DNA of 23,178 nt, taken from the IMG/VR virus record IMGVR_UViG_3300025728_000036, positions 1-23,178 of that record; one strand, written 5' to 3'. Positions 6,936 through 22,038 of the stretch are shown here, piece after piece; position 1 is the stretch's first letter, and every line of letters begins with the position of its first letter. Under the pieces are notes generated by a model. The model did not search any database, was not told where the DNA came from, and was given only the letters and a program-made list of their open reading frames with translations. Source of the DNA: a virus. The position numbers were made by a program, and so were the translations under genes.

Positions 6936-7346
6936 ATGGATAAGAAAGCGTTACAAGAACAATTTGAAGATATCGCAATTCAGAACTGCTGGAACATCAA
7001 TAAATATCCCGCTGGGTGGGATGGTCATGGCGATAATGAATATGCAGATGAGTTCGTAAATGGTGCTTGGTGGGGTTTTAAGCACCAGCAAGCGAAAGTG
7101 GAGCAACTTAAAGGTCAATTAGAGCGCGCGGGCTTTACCGATAACGGTGGGGAATTGATGAAACCACCAATAGGCATGCCGCCTCGTTTTGATTTATTTG
7201 ATGATCTTAAAAACTCAATAAGTGAAATGGCTCAAAAGTACAGAGCTGAAGCACACGAGTTAAGTCGTATTAGAGATTTTGAAAAGTCTCAGATGTATAG
7301 CCATTTTGCTAATGAATTGGATCGTTTAAATCAGGGTGGGGCTTGA
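6936..7346 (+). CDS. hypothetical nin-region protein, 136 aa
   Basis: Contains an aromatic segment (WNINKYPAGWDGHGDNEYAD, then FVNGAWWGFKHQQ) followed by helices (KVEQLKGQLERAG) seen in many small phage early proteins without known function. The ATG directly after the previous stop is chosen over a GTG three codons earlier; the ribosome site is weak (GAG). Stop and next start overlap as TGATG. Confidence 0.65.
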   Translation: MDKKALQEQFEDIAIQNCWNINKYPAGWDGHGDNEYADEFVNGAWWGFKHQQAKVEQLKGQLERAGFTDNGGELMKPPIGMPPRFDLFDDLKNSISEMAQKYRAEAHELSRIRDFEKSQMYSHFANELDRLNQGGA

Positions 7347-7744
7347 TGTCATCAATGAGCCTTGCCGATTACAAACGTCTTTATGCAAAGCCACGAAGCA
7401 AACCCAAGCGCCGTACTTCAGCCAAAAAAGAACGGGTTGTAAGTGAAGGTGAGGCAGCGCTTGTTCAGCACTTAAAGTCACACAAAATTGGTTTTGAACA
7501 GGAATATAAATTCCATCCAACACGTAAATGGAGAGCAGATTTTCTGATTACAGGTACAAAGATATTGATTGAGGTAGAAGGCGGGATCTGGAGCGGTGGA
7601 CGTCATACAAGGGGCAAAGGCTATTTGGGGGATCTGGAGAAATACAACGAAGCAGCAATGATGGGATTTACAGTTTTACGGTTCAGTACAGAGCAAGTTA
7701 AGTCAGGCGTGGCGATTAAACAAATTGAGCAATTGGTGGGATGA
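7346..7744 (+). CDS. PD-(D/E)XK-like nuclease (Vsr/DUF559-like), 132 aa
   Basis: After a basic N-terminus (KPRSKPKRRTSAKKER), the core reads KFHPTRKWRADF, ILIEVEGGIWSGGRH, then EKYNEAAMMGFTVLRF. Asp65 in WRADF and Glu76 and Glu78 in IEVEGG are in place for metal-dependent catalysis as in Vsr and DUF559 proteins, and GGRH adds a conserved basic/His segment. It likely cuts DNA, perhaps in recombination or replication intermediates; substrate unknown. TGATG overlap with the upstream gene, ATGA overlap with Q. A related gene lies at 9445-9921. Confidence 0.75.
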   Translation: MSSMSLADYKRLYAKPRSKPKRRTSAKKERVVSEGEAALVQHLKSHKIGFEQEYKFHPTRKWRADFLITGTKILIEVEGGIWSGGRHTRGKGYLGDLEKYNEAAMMGFTVLRFSTEQVKSGVAIKQIEQLVG

Positions 7745-8238
7745 AGATGAATATGCCAGTACAACACATTTTACAAGCGGTCGATTGGTCTAAGTATAGT
7801 TTTGAAGAATGGTGCCGCCAGCTAGGGGCTTGGCTAAATGGTGATACTGAAACAATGGTTAAAATTGTTAAGACGATGCCAACGAAACGTATCACTCAAA
7901 AACAACGTGAAAAGCTTATGGCTATGTATATGAGTGATGAAACTTTAAAAGATCGTTTGTGTATTCGTCGTAAGGGTACTTGTTGTCAGTTAAATGATAA
8001 CGAAGTAAGGGCAGTACATAGATTATTTATTGATATGCAGTTAATTGAAGACCATATATTACAAGAATGGATCTCAGCAATTTGGTCACATCATGTCATG
8101 GGTAATTCTTTAAGAGATATTGCTCAGAGTAATGACACTTCAGTTAATCAAATTAGACAAGACTTAAAGTGCGGACTTGCTTATATCAAAAGCCGTAATC
8201 CAAACTTTGCATTTGAAACTTTCGAAAAAACCACTTGA
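7741..8238 (+). CDS. Q-like late antiterminator, 165 aa
   Basis: Last gene of the early operon. The C-terminal helix-turn-helix (residues about 118-148, HHVMGNSLRDIAQSNDTSV, then QIRQDLKCGLAYIK) resembles sigma region 4, as in phage antiterminators of the Q/DUF1133 kind. Such proteins load onto RNA polymerase at the late promoter and let it read through terminators. The expected target, a promoter followed by a terminator, lies right after the stop codon. Cys81-Cys82 and other Cys residues could bind metal, but no clean finger is visible. Which Q subfamily it belongs to cannot be told here. Confidence 0.7.
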   Translation: MKMNMPVQHILQAVDWSKYSFEEWCRQLGAWLNGDTETMVKIVKTMPTKRITQKQREKLMAMYMSDETLKDRLCIRRKGTCCQLNDNEVRAVHRLFIDMQLIEDHILQEWISAIWSHHVMGNSLRDIAQSNDTSVNQIRQDLKCGLAYIKSRNPNFAFETFEKTT

Positions 8239-9444: not shown

Positions 9445-9921
9445 ATGGACAGTAAACATTATTTTTGGCTTACAAGAAAAAAAGAACCTAAAACAAAATC
9501 TAAAAGCCGGCCTTTGCCTAAGGCTACCCAAAAATATTTAGAGGCAGAAGAAGAATTTACTGAAACTTTAGATAATCTGGAAATTAAATACGAAAAGAAG
9601 TTTCAATTTAAATCAACCAAGCACTGGCGATTTGATTTTCATTTAATTGAACATCGTATTTTAGTTGAAATTGCTGGAGGTCCTTGGTCAGGTGGCCGAA
9701 AGGGTAAGCTTAAGAATAAAGCATGGAGCCTTGATCGTTACGACGTAGCTGAGGAGATGGGCTATACAGTAGTTCGTATAGAGACAGCTTCGAGATGTAG
9801 GATCGATGATACTGGACCAGTACAGTTAAGAAGTGAATACGCTAGTGAGTGGCTCAAAAACTTGAAGAGGCAAATATTTAATGGATCAGATCAGACCATT
9901 CCCGCAACCAGACTTTATTGA
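9445..9921 (+). CDS. second PD-(D/E)XK-like protein, paralogue of 7346-7744, 158 aa
   Basis: Shares the core of the earlier nuclease: KFQFKSTKHWRFDF, ILVEIAGGPWSGGR, then DRYDVAEEMGYTVVRIE. Asp64 and Glu75 are kept, but the second acidic residue (Glu78 in the paralogue) is Ala77 and the His after GGR is Lys, so activity may differ or be lost. It has a longer basic N-terminus (KKEPKTKSKSRPLPK). GGTGA lies before the ATG. It overlaps the metallopeptidase gene by 41 bases. Position just upstream of the terminase genes could hint at a packaging-linked job, which is speculation. Confidence 0.7.
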   Translation: MDSKHYFWLTRKKEPKTKSKSRPLPKATQKYLEAEEEFTETLDNLEIKYEKKFQFKSTKHWRFDFHLIEHRILVEIAGGPWSGGRKGKLKNKAWSLDRYDVAEEMGYTVVRIETASRCRIDDTGPVQLRSEYASEWLKNLKRQIFNGSDQTIPATRLY

Positions 9922-13899: not shown

Positions 13900-14665
13900 G
13901 AAACGGAAGAAAGGGCGTAAAGCTTCCAAGCCTAGAGCAGTACATGTAAATCGCCGTGTAGAGCTTTATTACACACGGCAATTACTGGCTATTTCAAAAT
14001 ATTGTCAGGACCAAACAAAAGATCTTGTCATTCCAACGGTAGGTCAGAACATCGGTGATGCTTGGTTCTCTGACATGATGACAGCGTTTAGGGAAAAGCT
14101 CACAAAATATGTTGTTGAGGTTTCCCAACCGTTGGCCACAAAGGTTGTGACTGACACACAAAAGGAAGTAGATAAACAAATTGCTGAACATACCAAATCA
14201 ATTATTGGTGTGGATCTAACGCCGTTCTATCGAGCTGCTGATATTCAGAATGAAGTAGATCTTAATATTACGGCTAATGTCAGCTTGATTAAGTCTATTC
14301 CTCAGCAATACGCCGATAAGCTTGAAGTATTAATCACCAATGCATTGCAGACTGGTCAAACTAATGAGCAACTTGCAAAAGCCATTAAAGAGTTAGGGCT
14401 TTTTACTGATTATCGTGCACGTCTTATTGCTAGTGATCAGATGGGTAAGATTAACGGCCAAATTAACCAAGCCCGACAGCTTTCAATGGGTGTTGAGACA
14501 TACACATGGCAAACGGCGAAAGATGAGCGTGTAAGGCCAGATCATAAACATAAGCAGGGTGAAACCTTTAGATGGGATTCACCGCCAGATGGTGGGCATC
14601 CCGGTCAGCCTATCCGCTGCCGTTGTACGGCATTGCCTAATTATGAGGATATTTTGATTGAATAG
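13853..14665 (+). CDS. minor head / head morphogenesis protein, 270 aa
   Basis: SPP1 gp7/Mu F-type protein. The C-terminal signature is present: LIASDQMGKINGQINQARQL, YTWQTAKDERVRPDHK, then GGHPGQPIRCRCTALP. A basic N-terminus (AKKRKKGRKASKPRAVH) may bind DNA. It starts inside the portal gene with a GGTG ribosome site. Its last 29 bases overlap the end of the minus-strand gene that follows, in convergent orientation. Confidence 0.85.
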   Translation: MTTIIQILKPHLQQAKKRKKGRKASKPRAVHVNRRVELYYTRQLLAISKYCQDQTKDLVIPTVGQNIGDAWFSDMMTAFREKLTKYVVEVSQPLATKVVTDTQKEVDKQIAEHTKSIIGVDLTPFYRAADIQNEVDLNITANVSLIKSIPQQYADKLEVLITNALQTGQTNEQLAKAIKELGLFTDYRARLIASDQMGKINGQINQARQLSMGVETYTWQTAKDERVRPDHKHKQGETFRWDSPPDGGHPGQPIRCRCTALPNYEDILIE

Positions 14666-15227
14666 AATCGATTATTTTCTGTATATCTTCTACTCTTCTG
14701 TCATATCCTTCGTTAGCACTATGAATTTTACCTTTAATGGGGATTAGATGTTCTAAATACATTTCTAAATCTTTATGACTAACTGAAGTATCTTTATTGG
14801 TAAGTTGTTCAATTAATCGATTTACCACATCTTTCGGACTTTTCAATTCATTCAAAGGATTTTTAATGTATTCAGCAAAGCTATATTCACTACCTGGCAT
14901 TTTGTCATTAATTGTTAAATTAAATATATTTGCAAATTGAGTAAAAGTTTCTTCTAATTTTTTATGCTTATGCTCAATTGAATATATTAATTCTTTGCAT
15001 TCATAAACAACTGTTAATACGGATAATTTTAAATTAAAAGCTGTTAATCTTAGATCTTCTGCTTGTTGATCATTAGCAATTTGTATTTGTTCTCTTGCAT
15101 ATTTAATTTGTTCTCTTGCATATGCGGCAGCTTTAATTGCCAACGCTATAGCAAATATACCCAATAGAGTTTGCAATTGACCTGAATTACAGCCTATCCA
15201 GTCCCATAAATTAATAAGAGGATTCAT
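14637..15227 (-). CDS. minus-strand cargo gene: membrane-anchored coiled-coil protein, 196 aa
   Basis: No family recognised. One membrane helix lies at about residues 18-36 (LQTLLGIFAIALAIKAAAYA), followed by a coiled coil with duplicated heptads YAREQIK/YAREQIQ (36-49); the DNA repeat is 21 bases apart (15086-15102 and 15107-15123). The rest is a helical soluble domain, probably cytoplasmic. It is AT-rich and the only leftward gene in the late region, so it could be expressed in the lysogen. AGGT lies eight bases before the ATG. A lysogenic-conversion or superinfection-exclusion role is possible but unproven. Confidence 0.72.
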   Translation of the reverse strand: MNPLINLWDWIGCNSGQLQTLLGIFAIALAIKAAAYAREQIKYAREQIQIANDQQAEDLRLTAFNLKLSVLTVVYECKELIYSIEHKHKKLEETFTQFANIFNLTINDKMPGSEYSFAEYIKNPLNELKSPKDVVNRLIEQLTNKDTSVSHKDLEMYLEHLIPIKGKIHSANEGYDRRVEDIQKIIDSIQSKYPHN

Positions 15228-17001: not shown

Positions 17002-17982
17002 ATGTCAAAACAATTAGAACAAATGAAAATACGCTTATCGGCGGTTGCACATGGGGTGCAGATCGCCGTAGGTGATGCATTTAATTTAGATAACTTTGCC
17101 AAGTTATTGTTGAAGCTTGAATCAATTGATGAAATGACGCCACAACTTGCTGAAGCTCAAGCCTACGCGAAGTACTTACCAATCGAAGGTTTAGAAGGTG
17201 CGGTCATTGGTTCTGCAAGTGTCTTACAGCGTAAGAAAGGTGTAGGACGTGGTAAACGCTTCTCAGGTCAAGGTAATGATGTGCCATTGGCTGAGGTTGT
17301 ATACGATGAAGTAAAACTCACCGTACAACCGGGTGTTATTGGCTACGAAATCAGTATCTTTGATGCGGCAGCAGCATTGAAAGCTGGTATCCAGCTAACC
17401 ACTGACAAAGTAGCTGCTGCTCGTTTGGCCTATGAAAACCATATGAGTGATGTGGCATGGTTTGGTGAGCCTGAAACTGGTTTACTCGGCTTCTATAACC
17501 AGACAGGTGTAGAGGTAATTTCCTCTACGGTTGATTATGCTACAGCTACAGTTGAAGCTGTACTTGCTGATATCAATAAGGCAATTAAAGGCGCTACCAA
17601 TGCATCTAAGTTTGATAGCAGTGTTCAACCAGACACTTTCGTGATGCCTGAAAATAAGTTCACGATTCTCGCAAGCCGTATTGTTCCAGACTCAGCAGGT
17701 AAAACTTTCCTTGAATATATTAAGGAAAAGAATACTTTTGCAATGCAAGGTAAAACACTAACGTTTACTTCTGAAAGCACGCTTGAGGGTAAAGGTGAAG
17801 GTGGTACGGACCGCAGCATTATTTATCGCCGTGATCCAAGCTGTATTACTTTCCGTTGTAATGAACTGGAATTCTTGGCAGCTCAACCTATCAATTATGT
17901 GATGCGTACACCAGGACACTATATGTATGAAGGTGTCTATTTAAAACGTGTCGATTCTCTCCGCTATTACGATGTTGAATAA
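17002..17982 (+). CDS. major capsid protein (DUF2184), 326 aa
   Basis: Contains the segments expected for DUF2184 capsid proteins: DEVKLTVQPGVIGYEISIFD, ARLAYENHMSDVAWFGEPET, LLGFYNQ, and at the end AAQPINYVMRTPGHYMYEGV. The fold is expected to be HK97-like. It lies two bases after the cement gene. A strong terminator-like hairpin comes shortly after the stop codon, inside the next gene. Confidence 0.88.
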   Translation: MSKQLEQMKIRLSAVAHGVQIAVGDAFNLDNFAKLLLKLESIDEMTPQLAEAQAYAKYLPIEGLEGAVIGSASVLQRKKGVGRGKRFSGQGNDVPLAEVVYDEVKLTVQPGVIGYEISIFDAAAALKAGIQLTTDKVAAARLAYENHMSDVAWFGEPETGLLGFYNQTGVEVISSTVDYATATVEAVLADINKAIKGATNASKFDSSVQPDTFVMPENKFTILASRIVPDSAGKTFLEYIKEKNTFAMQGKTLTFTSESTLEGKGEGGTDRSIIYRRDPSCITFRCNELEFLAAQPINYVMRTPGHYMYEGVYLKRVDSLRYYDVE

Positions 17983-17994
17983 GGAAAACTAAAC

Positions 17995-18372
17995 ATGCCA
18001 AAAATTACTTACAGCGGCTCTCAAGCCGCTTTTTCTTTTGATGGGATTCAGGTTGGTAAAGGCCAAACAGTAGAAGTCAGTACCAAGGATTTCACAAGCA
18101 TTTCTAAAGGGAAAGCTTTTAAGTCACTTGTTGAAAAAGGTGATCTTGAAATTCAGGAAATCCCAGATGATGAGTCAAAAGCAACGGGTAAAACAGGTGG
18201 CCGTGGTGGTAAAGGTGGCAAATCAAATGATGGAGCAGGCGACCAGCAAAAGGCAACTGATGAAGCAGCTTTGGCCGCCGTGAAAGCTGAACTAGCAGCG
18301 CTTGAAGTTACTTTCAGTGATGATGAAACCCTTGAGCAATTACAAGCAAAGTTAGCTCAAGCTAAGGAATAA
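17995..18372 (+). CDS. hypothetical head protein with Gly/Lys linker, 125 aa
   Basis: The N-terminal third is beta-rich (ITYSGSQAAFSFDGIQVGKG). A Gly/Lys-rich linker (TGKTGGRGGKGGKSNDGAG) follows, then a C-terminal helical segment (EVTFSDDETLEQLQAKLAQA) that resembles a HeH/LEM-like tail. Codons 7-15 form a full intrinsic terminator. AAGGA lies before the ATG. Possibly a capsid-linked accessory; not recognised more closely. Confidence 0.7.
   Translation: MPKITYSGSQAAFSFDGIQVGKGQTVEVSTKDFTSISKGKAFKSLVEKGDLEIQEIPDDESKATGKTGGRGGKGGKSNDGAGDQQKATDEAALAAVKAELAALEVTFSDDETLEQLQAKLAQAKE
18013..18039 (+). terminator. intrinsic terminator inside the start of a gene, after the capsid gene
   Basis: AGCGGCT-CTCA-AGCCGCT forms a perfect 7-bp stem followed by five T, C and four T. 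It begins 31 bases past the capsid stop and lies within codons 7-15 of the next gene. A ribosome translating that gene would cover the hairpin. Confidence 0.7.
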
Positions 18373-18381
18373 GGTGTGCTT

Positions 18382-18765
18382 ATGGACGTACAAACGTTTC
18401 GTGAAAAGTTCTCGACTGATTCGAGTTTAATGTCTTTGCCAGATGCAAGAATTCAGGATGCATTGGAAGAAGCAGATTTGGTCGTATCTCAAATTGAGTT
18501 CGGGGCATTAAAGGAACGTGCTGTAGGTCTATATGCAGCACATATTCTTAAAGTTGGTACCGCAAGCGGCAATGGTGCAGCTTTTAGTAACGCCTCGAGC
18601 ATGACAATCGCGGGCCAAAGCGTGAGTTATTCCCGATCATCGAAAGAAGCTTTCTATGATCTCAGCATGTATGGCCAGCGCTACCTTGCCTTAAAAAATT
18701 CCATTCCAATCGATGATGAAGGCACTAATCCTAACCATTTAGGCGTCGGTGCTTTTGTCGTATAG
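18382..18765 (+). CDS. head-tail connector (DUF4054), 127 aa
   Basis: The helical start (FREKFSTDSSLMSLPDARIQ, DALEEADLVVS), the middle (AVGLYAAHILKVG) and the Tyr-rich end (SKEAFYDLSMYGQRYLALK) are the DUF4054 connector pattern. It should join the portal ring to the tail. The ATG has AAGG seven bases upstream; a GTG two codons earlier is rejected. Confidence 0.8.
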   Translation: MDVQTFREKFSTDSSLMSLPDARIQDALEEADLVVSQIEFGALKERAVGLYAAHILKVGTASGNGAAFSNASSMTIAGQSVSYSRSSKEAFYDLSMYGQRYLALKNSIPIDDEGTNPNHLGVGAFVV

Positions 18766-19907: not shown

Positions 19908-19929
19908 TGACCGCCTCTATGGCGGTTTT
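19908..19929 (+). terminator. intrinsic terminator before the tail tube gene
   Basis: ACCGCC-TCTAT-GGCGGT followed by TTTG. The T run is short, so termination may be partial, lowering tail transcript levels relative to head genes. Confidence 0.65.
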
Positions 19930-19953: not shown

Positions 19954-20721
19954 ATGGCTCAATATTTATTTGGTGCTGGCAAGATCTTTGCTACACCGAT
20001 TCAAGATGTTTATGGGCAACCGATTAGTAATCCCACCCCAGTTGAGGTGGGAGTGATGCAATCCGTTGGTGTAGATATTAGCTATGACTTAAAAGAGCTT
20101 TTCGGTCGTGGTCAATTCGCCGTAGAAGCTGCACGTGGTAAAGGTGCCATTAAATGTAAAGCTTCTTTCGGGCGAATTAACGGAACCTTGTTAAATTCTA
20201 TTTTCTTTGGTGGTGTGGTTGCTGAAGGTGGAATCGAGACAGTATCCCAAACCATTAATGGTGAAGTGGTACCAGCTGGCGGCTTGGTTACACCTCCAGT
20301 TCCTAATGCTGGCACTTATGTTAAGGATTTAGGTGTTACGGATGGGAAGGCGGTTCCGCTCAAACGTGTAGCGTCAGCACCAACAGCAGGGCAATACAGT
20401 GTAGATGTGGCTACAGGTGCTTATACATTTGCAACGGCGGATGTTGGGAAATTTGTATTCATTAGCTTCCGTTATTCCGCAACAGTAGCAGGTGGTAAGT
20501 CAATCACCGTTTCAAACCTAGACATGGGCTATACGCCCGAGTTTGCCGTTGATTTGCAACGTGACTACAAAGGTAAATTCATGCACATGAATTTCTTCCG
20601 CTGTACCAGCAACAAGCTTGGGTTTAGTTCAAAACAGGACGATTTCGACATCCCTGAGTTTGAATTCCAGCCTATGGCTGATGATCTTAACCGTGTCTTC
20701 AAAATCGATTTATCGGAGTAA
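19954..20721 (+). CDS. major tail tube protein, 255 aa
   Basis: Long beta-rich protein following the tail terminator gene. Segments such as VEVGVMQSVGVDISYDLKEL, FGRGQFAVEAARGKGAIKCK and MGYTPEFAVDLQRDY are typical of siphophage tail tubes. A Gly/Pro/Val-rich central insert (VVPAGGLVTPPVPNAG) may be a surface loop or extra domain. GAGG lies before the ATG. Confidence 0.8.
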   Translation: MAQYLFGAGKIFATPIQDVYGQPISNPTPVEVGVMQSVGVDISYDLKELFGRGQFAVEAARGKGAIKCKASFGRINGTLLNSIFFGGVVAEGGIETVSQTINGEVVPAGGLVTPPVPNAGTYVKDLGVTDGKAVPLKRVASAPTAGQYSVDVATGAYTFATADVGKFVFISFRYSATVAGGKSITVSNLDMGYTPEFAVDLQRDYKGKFMHMNFFRCTSNKLGFSSKQDDFDIPEFEFQPMADDLNRVFKIDLSE

Positions 20722-21048: not shown

Positions 21049-21311
21049 ATTGGGAGGAGCTGTACACGCATTTAGTGCTGACGATGGGCAAAGATTACGA
21101 CTATGTACGTAATGAAATGGATCTTCCTAGATTAAGAGCATTAAGTGCGTATCAGCAAATTAACCCTCCCGCACATATCGGAATACAACGCCTTTGTCGT
21201 ATCTTGGAAGCATTCGCTGGAATTGAAGAGACAGACCCAGCAATCACTCTTTCAGATGAAGATGAAGACGATATGCTAGAAGTTTTAGAAAGTTTCCCGC
21301 AGGGTGGTTAA
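21039..21311 (+). CDS. tail chaperone T-like domain, made as -1 frameshift fusion (GT)
   Basis: Read in the -1 frame the sequence continues INWEELYTHLVLTMGKDYDY, then MDLPRLRALSAYQQINPP, the signature of lambda T-type C-terminal domains. The fusion from 20728 would be about 194 residues. No independent start with a ribosome site exists: GTG at 21075 and ATG at 21084 are too far from GGAGG. GT would bind the tape measure protein while G coats it during tail assembly. The acidic C-terminus (SDEDEDDMLEVLE) is notable. Confidence 0.78.
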   Translation, partial: GGINWEELYTHLVLTMGKDYDYVRNEMDLPRLRALSAYQQINPPAHIGIQRLCRILEAFAGIEETDPAITLSDEDEDDMLEVLESFPQGG

Positions 21312-21326
21312 GGCCACCCTGTTTTA
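21300..21326 (+). terminator. intrinsic terminator after the tail chaperone genes
   Basis: CAGGGTGG-TTAAGG-CCACCCTG perfect 8-bp stem followed by TTTTAGTTTT; the T-gene stop codon lies in the loop. It separates structural transcription from the cargo gene promoter. Confidence 0.85.
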
Positions 21327-21335
21327 GTTTTCAAT

Positions 21336-21364
21336 GTGACAAAAAGTAATCGGTTTGTTAAATT
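21336..21364 (+). promoter_or_regulatory. promoter of the VasI-like cargo gene
   Basis: GTGACA and TAAATT are 17 bases apart. Transcription would begin near 21371, leaving a short leader before the ATG at 21394. Its presence between two terminators suggests expression independent of the late operon. Confidence 0.6.
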
Positions 21365-21393
21365 ATGCTTACTTTATAACAACCGGTGAAATC

Positions 21394-21978
21394 ATGAAAA
21401 AGTTTTTCAAGTGGGTGCTGATTCTATTTATAGGGTTCTTTCTTTTGGGTGTTATTCTTAATGTATTAGGTGTAAAAGGTAGCAGTACTGAAAATAAAAC
21501 TGAAAATAGCACAAAAGAAACAAAGGATTCTAAATGGCAATATCAAGAAGATATTTCCAAAATGACAGACAAAAAGAATATCTACGTTACTTTGAAATCA
21601 GATTCAATTTGGATGAAAAATGGAGATCCATCGCAGGCAGTTATTCCTGATTTAACATTCAGATGCCAAGATGATTCGGTTGATGTAATTTTATCTACTC
21701 AAACGCCTTTAAGTCCTGAATATGGAAATGCTTTGGGCAAAACTCTTAAAGCTAGACTAGATAACCAAAAAGCCTTCAACATTTCATTTAGTAATGGACA
21801 AGGTTCATACACAACCTTCTTTGCAGAAAAGCCAAAACAATTAATAGAAAAATTAAAAGGACATAACAAATTGTTGCTTGAGGTGAATGTTCACCGCCAA
21901 GGACCATTTGTTATTGAATTTAATCTTGATGAATTTGAAAAGAATTTAGATCCCGTAAAGAAAGCATGTAAATTTTAG
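21394..21978 (+). CDS. membrane-anchored VasI-like cargo protein, 194 aa
   Basis: One N-terminal membrane helix (about 5-26, KWVLILFIGFFLLGVILNVL), a Lys/Thr/Asn-rich spacer, then a beta-rich domain with Cys91 (LTFRCQDD) and Cys192 near the end, possibly a disulfide. The pattern LTFRC, FFAEKPKQLIEKLKGHNKLL, VEFNLDEFEKNLDPVKKAC resembles the VasI-type domain first named in type VI secretion clusters. Here it lies in a phage tail operon, so a secretion role is doubtful. The domain is probably periplasmic. GGTGA precedes this ATG; an in-frame start 13 codons earlier overlaps the promoter. Confidence 0.72.
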   Translation: MKKFFKWVLILFIGFFLLGVILNVLGVKGSSTENKTENSTKETKDSKWQYQEDISKMTDKKNIYVTLKSDSIWMKNGDPSQAVIPDLTFRCQDDSVDVILSTQTPLSPEYGNALGKTLKARLDNQKAFNISFSNGQGSYTTFFAEKPKQLIEKLKGHNKLLLEVNVHRQGPFVIEFNLDEFEKNLDPVKKACKF

Positions 21979-21981
21979 CTT

Positions 21982-22004
21982 AAAGCACCTACGGGTGCTT
22001 TTTT
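21982..22004 (+). terminator. first terminator after the cargo gene
   Basis: AAGCACC-TACG-GGTGCTT followed by a T run, just after the cargo gene stop. Confidence 0.88.
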
Positions 22005-22013
22005 AACCTTTTA

Positions 22014-22038
22014 AAAACCACCTTCAGGTGGTTTTTTT
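22014..22038 (+). terminator. second, tandem terminator before the tape measure gene
   Basis: AAAACCACC-TTCA-GGTGGTTTT followed by more T residues, ten bases after the first. The symmetrical A and T tracts could also serve the minus strand. Late transcription must pass both to reach the tape measure gene. Confidence 0.85.

Follow-up and report, generated by a model that had tools for sequence, protein, structure and literature searches.

A predicted intrinsic terminator conserved within the first codons of the post-capsid gene in a family of Acinetobacter phages

The stretch of viral DNA analyzed here (the window; 23,178 nucleotides) carries a hairpin and a U-rich tract inside the open reading frame (ORF) that follows its major capsid gene. 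We interpret this element as a post-capsid intrinsic terminator lying within the next ORF, where partial termination would raise capsid RNA over downstream RNA and read-through would probably be governed by a Q-like protein; we put the probability of this reading at roughly 70%. Most likely, the coat-protein message is more abundant than what follows it owing to this element. An earlier note on this DNA had suggested that a terminator here could set the ratio of capsid to downstream protein, and the sequence, position, and conservation described below support a terminator-like element placed so that capsid RNA would exceed downstream RNA. The features discussed are collected in Table 1.

Table 1. 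Positions of the predicted terminator and associated features in the window
Feature	Coordinates	Strand	Evidence
Q-like antitermination protein gene, probable read-through regulator of the late operon	7741..8238	+	phrog_79 E=1.5e-35; Pfam Phage_antitermQ E=5e-4, below its cut-off
Major capsid protein gene (PF09950 / DUF2184 family)	17002..17982	+	Pfam PF09950 E=3.3e-56; phrog_264 major head protein E=9.7e-60
AAGGA resembling a Shine-Dalgarno sequence for the next gene; overlaps the stop codon of the capsid gene	17981..17985	+	Sequence; TAAGG retained in relatives
Post-capsid ORF, 125 aa, phrog_10533 (function unknown), terminator in codons 7-15	17995..18372	+	
Predicted terminator hairpin: 5' arm 18013-18019, loop 18020-18023, 3' arm 18024-18030; codons 7-12 (SGSQAA)	18013..18030	+	Kept in 110 relatives
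U-tract TTTTCTTTT, codons 13-15 (FSF), predicted RNA 3' ends inside	18031..18039	+	U-rich in relatives despite FVF, FIL, IIL
Second conserved terminator-like hairpin, intergenic, before gene 19954-20721	19909..19927	+	Terminator scan and relatives
Third terminator-like hairpin, which spans the end of ORF 21075-21311	21299..21322	+	Terminator scan

A hairpin and U-tract inside the post-capsid ORF

The earlier note had described a hairpin with a T-rich tract in codons 7 to 15 of the gene after the capsid gene, and our reading of the sequence agrees with it, coordinates included. AGCGGCT pairs with AGCCGCT around the loop CTCA and is followed directly by TTTTCTTTT; together (18013-18039) they are exactly codons 7-15 of the ORF that opens with the ATG at 17995. 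The capsid gene ends in TAA at 17980-17982, which leaves a counted gap of 30 nt between stop and stem. The hairpin is listed by the terminator scan (7 bp, 5 of them G-C, loop of 4), its computed dG is -10.8 kcal/mol, and it is G+C-rich, as is characteristic of intrinsic (Rho-independent) terminators. The tract after the stem is U-rich in every variant we compiled, weakest in L262, but is broken by non-U letters (TTTTCTTTT in the window and ATTATTTT in L262), and with such an interrupted tract termination efficiency may be modest. The location, 30 nt past the stop of a PF09950 gene on the same strand, is a post-capsid position of the T7 Tphi type. The shortness of the hairpin accounts for a weak fold z-score (-1.35) over 71 nt around it, and a search of Rfam gave no match for the element.

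The start codon at 17995 is credible because a Shine-Dalgarno-like AAGGA overlaps the capsid stop, because the ORF contains no in-frame ATG, GTG, or TTG ahead of codon 93, and because homologues that lack the hairpin share the same N-terminus (TYxG). The last two observations rule out a misannotated start, which would have made the hairpin truly intergenic. A function on the minus strand was also ruled out, since on the opposite strand the stem is not followed by a U-tract.

RNA polymerase on the structural operon would partly terminate in the U-tract, at about 18031-18039, and partial termination would leave more capsid RNA than RNA of the downstream head-completion and tail genes. These genes would be expressed through read-through, probably controlled for the most part by the Q-like antitermination protein and by incomplete termination. 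Read-through is expected since our scan found no plus-strand promoter-like site between 18039 and 21300. A terminated transcript would include the ribosome-binding site and run about 14 codons into the next ORF without reaching a stop codon. In E. coli, terminators placed up to 100 bp into an ORF are efficient (PMC4824070). Our literature search found no 3'-end maps for Acinetobacter prophages, no Term-seq of phage capsid terminators, and no reporter data.

Synonymous constraint on the stem among relatives

The set of loci with an in-ORF hairpin comprises 110 loci including the window, or 83 unique genes, drawn from IMG/VR, phage records, and Moraxellaceae genomes. It was assembled partly via the presence of the hairpin motif; a motif-independent profile search, run on 349 Moraxellaceae genomes, returned 23 homologues, of which 19 carry the hairpin and four are of the hairpin-less types. 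The set spans prophages of many Acinetobacter species and also takes in a clade whose N-terminal peptide differs and whose capsid is only ~53% identical (5W; L059-L081). Over the 110 loci, the distance from capsid stop to stem is 29-37 nt and that from AUG to stem is 18-24 nt, and in the Acinetobacter lineage the next ORF begins 11-13 nt past the capsid stop. The post-capsid gene is itself mosaic: L059-L081 and L002-L058 differ in their capsid and N-terminus while their C-terminal halves are nearly identical, which suggests recombination within the gene.

The stem pairs in all 110 loci. Counted by parsimony on one gene tree of a phage group that recombines, the four stem codons (AGC, GGC, GCC, and GCT) show a single synonymous change in total among the 83 unique genes, a GCC to GCT change that turns G-C into G-U and is still paired. 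By the same count, 17 other conserved codons for residues with at least four codons show 5-22 synonymous changes each, with a mean of 12.5 (Mann-Whitney p=1.7e-4), a contrast that rests on the wider set, since nearly all of the first 18 codons are invariant in the closest clade. Such conservation of pairing at the RNA level supports an intrinsic terminator without strictly defining one. The one non-synonymous stem change, AGC to GGC in L252, likewise preserves pairing as G-U. Neighboring codons are free to vary (7 changes at Tyr6, 5 at Gln10, and 13 at Gly17), whereas the TTT Phe codons of the U-tract show 1 and 0 synonymous changes. The loop residues differ between relatives (SQ, LQ, SN, PQ, EQ) with the stem retained, and the residues encoded by the U-tract differ as well (FSF, FVF, FIL, IIL) while the T's and the U-richness persist.

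The earlier note had held that frequent stem-breaking synonymous changes in relatives would count against the element; none of the 83 unique genes carries one that breaks the six core pairs. Covariation was uninformative as a proof of pairing because the stem scarcely varies, and synonymous constraint was used instead. As a control, we considered the intragenic hairpin at 18518-18541, which lies in a DUF4054 gene and has a weak T-rich tail. Unlike the 18013 hairpin, it has stem-breaking changes in some relatives, and it is probably a product of chance.

The capsid boundary in other genomes and known systems

After this capsid family, Moraxellaceae genomes show three boundary states: an in-ORF hairpin (most of them), an intergenic hairpin terminator, or none. 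L260 and L261 have the intergenic arrangement TGACTAAA-TAGCCGC-AATTAA-GCGGCT-TTTAGTCA-TTTTT, which was recognized by eye and missed by the strict scan, and L263 has an intergenic hairpin terminator, AAGCGTCTATTAAGGCGCTT-TTTTATT; in all three the homologous ORF is hairpin-free. Acinetobacter phage Silvergun has, by eye, an intergenic hairpin with a poor U-tract. The Psychrobacter type (pOW20-A, L243, L244, and L259) has no terminator at the capsid boundary, and a terminator is therefore not essential to this gene order. The pOW20-A capsid, used as a query against viral_contigs, returned two near copies and zero further lineages.

More distant phages with a PF09950 capsid, including those of Klebsiella, Vibrio, Rhizobium, Alcaligenes, and others, share with the window the capsid family and a hairpin with a U-tract at the same boundary. 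In 8 of 12, the strict terminator scan placed such a structure no more than 25 nt from the capsid stop; 7 of these are counted as post-stop because the S-CBS4 hairpin overlaps the stop. In these seven the hairpin and U-tract lie 2-22 nt past the capsid stop and ahead of the next ORF, in contrast with the 29-37 nt and in-ORF location of the Acinetobacter lineage. When the distant-phage boundaries were shuffled, any hairpin with a U-tract appeared in only 0-2%. By eye, ST32, Spp001, and LA93P2 have a post-capsid hairpin whose U-tract is poor or absent, and Pam3, among the 12, has no post-capsid hairpin. Because relatives and distant phages bear intergenic counterparts at the same boundary, the conserved job is, as judged from these comparisons, termination after the capsid gene, and the in-ORF location is a lineage-specific placement. 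The in-ORF position is not needed for that job, since related genomes terminate intergenically at the same boundary.

Several known systems resemble parts of this arrangement. The Tphi terminator of T7 directly follows major capsid gene 10, and its partial read-through feeds downstream head and tail genes, with genes 11 and 12 expressed only by read-through (PMC5592923). Unlike the element described here, however, it acts on the phage RNA polymerase, sits between genes 10 and 11, and operates with no Q-like protein. In LUZ100, ONT-cappable-seq revealed an apparent strong terminator immediately past the major capsid gene (PMC10134795). LUZ100 differs in being a T7-like phage that has a polymerase of its own and a promoter local to the capsid gene, and its terminator is not reported inside the next ORF. 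Lambda tR2 belongs to an early operon under N antitermination. In its sequence an ATG, the NinA translation start used by Li et al. (PMC4824070), stands 28-29 nt ahead of the hairpin. Like our element, tR2 is an intrinsic terminator located among the first codons of a short ORF, but its hosting ORF is tiny and it does not follow a capsid gene. In the translation-coupled attenuators of pyrBI and of amino-acid operons, too, the terminator lies in or close to a translated leader; here we found neither a short leader peptide nor a competing helix, and the ORF that holds the hairpin is a complete structural-module gene. Post-capsid terminators and, through the lambda precedent, early-codon terminators are therefore already known. 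What is new is their combination, with strong evidence from sequence comparison that, in these phages, RNA-level selection dictates part of a protein of the structural module.

The late region contains other features of the same general kind. The stem of the second hairpin in Table 1 changes from ACCGCC/GGCGGT to ACCACC/GGTGGT in L152, a compensatory change. The gene that begins directly downstream of this hairpin encodes 255 aa (phrog_8234) with weak likeness to a virion structural protein; just ahead of a structural gene would be a strange place for a terminator if neither read-through nor a promoter follows. An insert-like gene at 21355-21978 stands between late genes and is followed by terminator-like hairpins at 21984-21999 and 22015-22034, as expected of a moron. 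A minus-strand ORF at 14637-15227 lies between plus-strand head genes, and vB_AbaSI_5 has a plus-strand HEPN-domain gene there; the position is likely a cargo slot.

Alternative readings and the role of the Q-like protein

As in lambda Q-type systems, the Q-like gene precedes the late operon; its Pfam hit falls below the curated cut-off. Close homologues of the protein occur in 5W, in vB_AbaSI_5, and in a record that labels it antiterminator Q. Two paralogous phrog_503 genes (7343-7744 and 9445-9921), with weak similarity to homing/HNH endonucleases, flank the Q-like gene, and in one relative the neighbor is annotated as a very-short-patch-repair endonuclease. If Q-modified, late transcription may read through the 18013 element at a high level during lytic growth, and the terminator may be active mostly early or in the lysogen; bypass in lytic growth would weaken its ratio-setting role.

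The most serious rival to a ratio-setting terminator is an insulator under Q control, in which the hairpin would mainly keep stray host transcription out of the late operon in the lysogen, whereas Q-modified polymerase would ignore it in lytic growth, so that protein ratios would not be set by it. The Q-like gene upstream of the late genes, the Q homologues in the related 5W and vB_AbaSI_5, and the several additional terminator-like hairpins that punctuate the late region are all consistent with such an insulator. A hairpin is retained specifically behind the capsid gene, however, also in distant phages from groups such as Jedunavirus and Chaseviridae, which are usually regarded as lytic; this would fit dosage better than silencing in the lysogen. 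On balance we consider the insulator unlikely, but it is the alternative to be taken most seriously.

Also improbable, in our view, is the translation-dependent switch that the earlier note had favored, in which ribosomes translating the opening of the next gene, such as those that re-initiate after the capsid stop, block the hairpin and termination follows only if the start is untranslated. The short distance between start codon and stem in all relatives and a Shine-Dalgarno sequence overlapping the capsid stop would make fast termination-reinitiation possible, and ribosomes do repress terminators late in ORFs (PMC4824070). However, when Li et al. placed tR2 30 bp past an AUG that followed an upstream stop, translation of the ORF cut termination efficiency by only ~10%, as seen on silencing the start site (PMC4824070). 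Ribosomes finishing an upstream gene cease to interfere beyond ~27-30 nt in E. coli (PMC4824070), and the geometry here (29-37 nt from stop and 18-24 nt from AUG) would predict an active terminator rather than a ribosome-blocked one, if we may infer from E. coli and tR2 to this phage. RNA polymerase at the U-tract would be ~40 nt past the AUG, earlier than a newly recruited ribosome normally initiates, and no competing antiterminator helix was predicted near the 18013 hairpin. The contrast that the earlier note drew with a plain intergenic terminator finds no support either, since related genomes have exactly such a terminator at the same boundary. The switch stands unproven, not disproved, and the Q-like antiterminator is a likelier source of regulated read-through.

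Li et al. note that in-ORF termination yields non-stop messages and that output from the upstream gene dropped by about half (PMC4824070); a similar outcome would be expected in this phage. It is conceivable, if very doubtful, that the terminator lies in the ORF so as to sense both re-initiating capsid ribosomes and Q, with capsid translation feeding back on downstream RNA and non-stop capsid mRNAs engaging trans-translation as a form of dosage control.

The hairpin could instead serve RNA stability or processing, by protecting the 3' end of the capsid mRNA or offering a nuclease site, or it could act as a translation brake on the next gene. The poor or missing U-tracts of ST32, Spp001, and LA93P2 would suit such a role, but in the in-ORF set the U-tract survives residue changes and its TTT Phe codons are almost frozen, as a terminator predicts, and we regard this explanation as very unlikely.

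Finally, the peptide SGxQAAF makes pairing easy, and one genome taken alone is no more than suggestive. Among 200,000 synonymous recodings drawn with the codon usage of the phage, 1.2% formed a comparable hairpin and U-tract at the same place, and the probability of exactly these four stem codons is 1.65e-3. The recoding rate and the near-invariance of the first 18 codons inside the closest clade would fit a peptide kept for protein reasons with coincidental pairing codons. This is extremely improbable and largely refuted, however, since it predicts many relatives whose synonymous codons break the stem and none was seen among the 83 unique genes, the stem and Phe codons keep their synonymous positions fixed from clade to clade while their neighbors vary, and the peptide itself is not fixed (hairpin-less homologues show QGTQTAL, QGEMGRV, or NGNNSSI there). 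By these comparisons, conservation among relatives takes the hairpin far beyond chance.

A post-capsid intrinsic terminator of this kind would be one kept by RNA selection inside coding sequence, with the hairpin dictating the Ser-Gly...Ala-Ala of the protein. Predicted post-capsid terminators recur at one boundary across many phages with this capsid fold, either between genes or within the next gene. Pipelines for gene or terminator prediction that scan only between genes would miss the in-ORF element. With the element located, control of capsid-to-tail dosage becomes testable in a phage group that is poor in RNA data.
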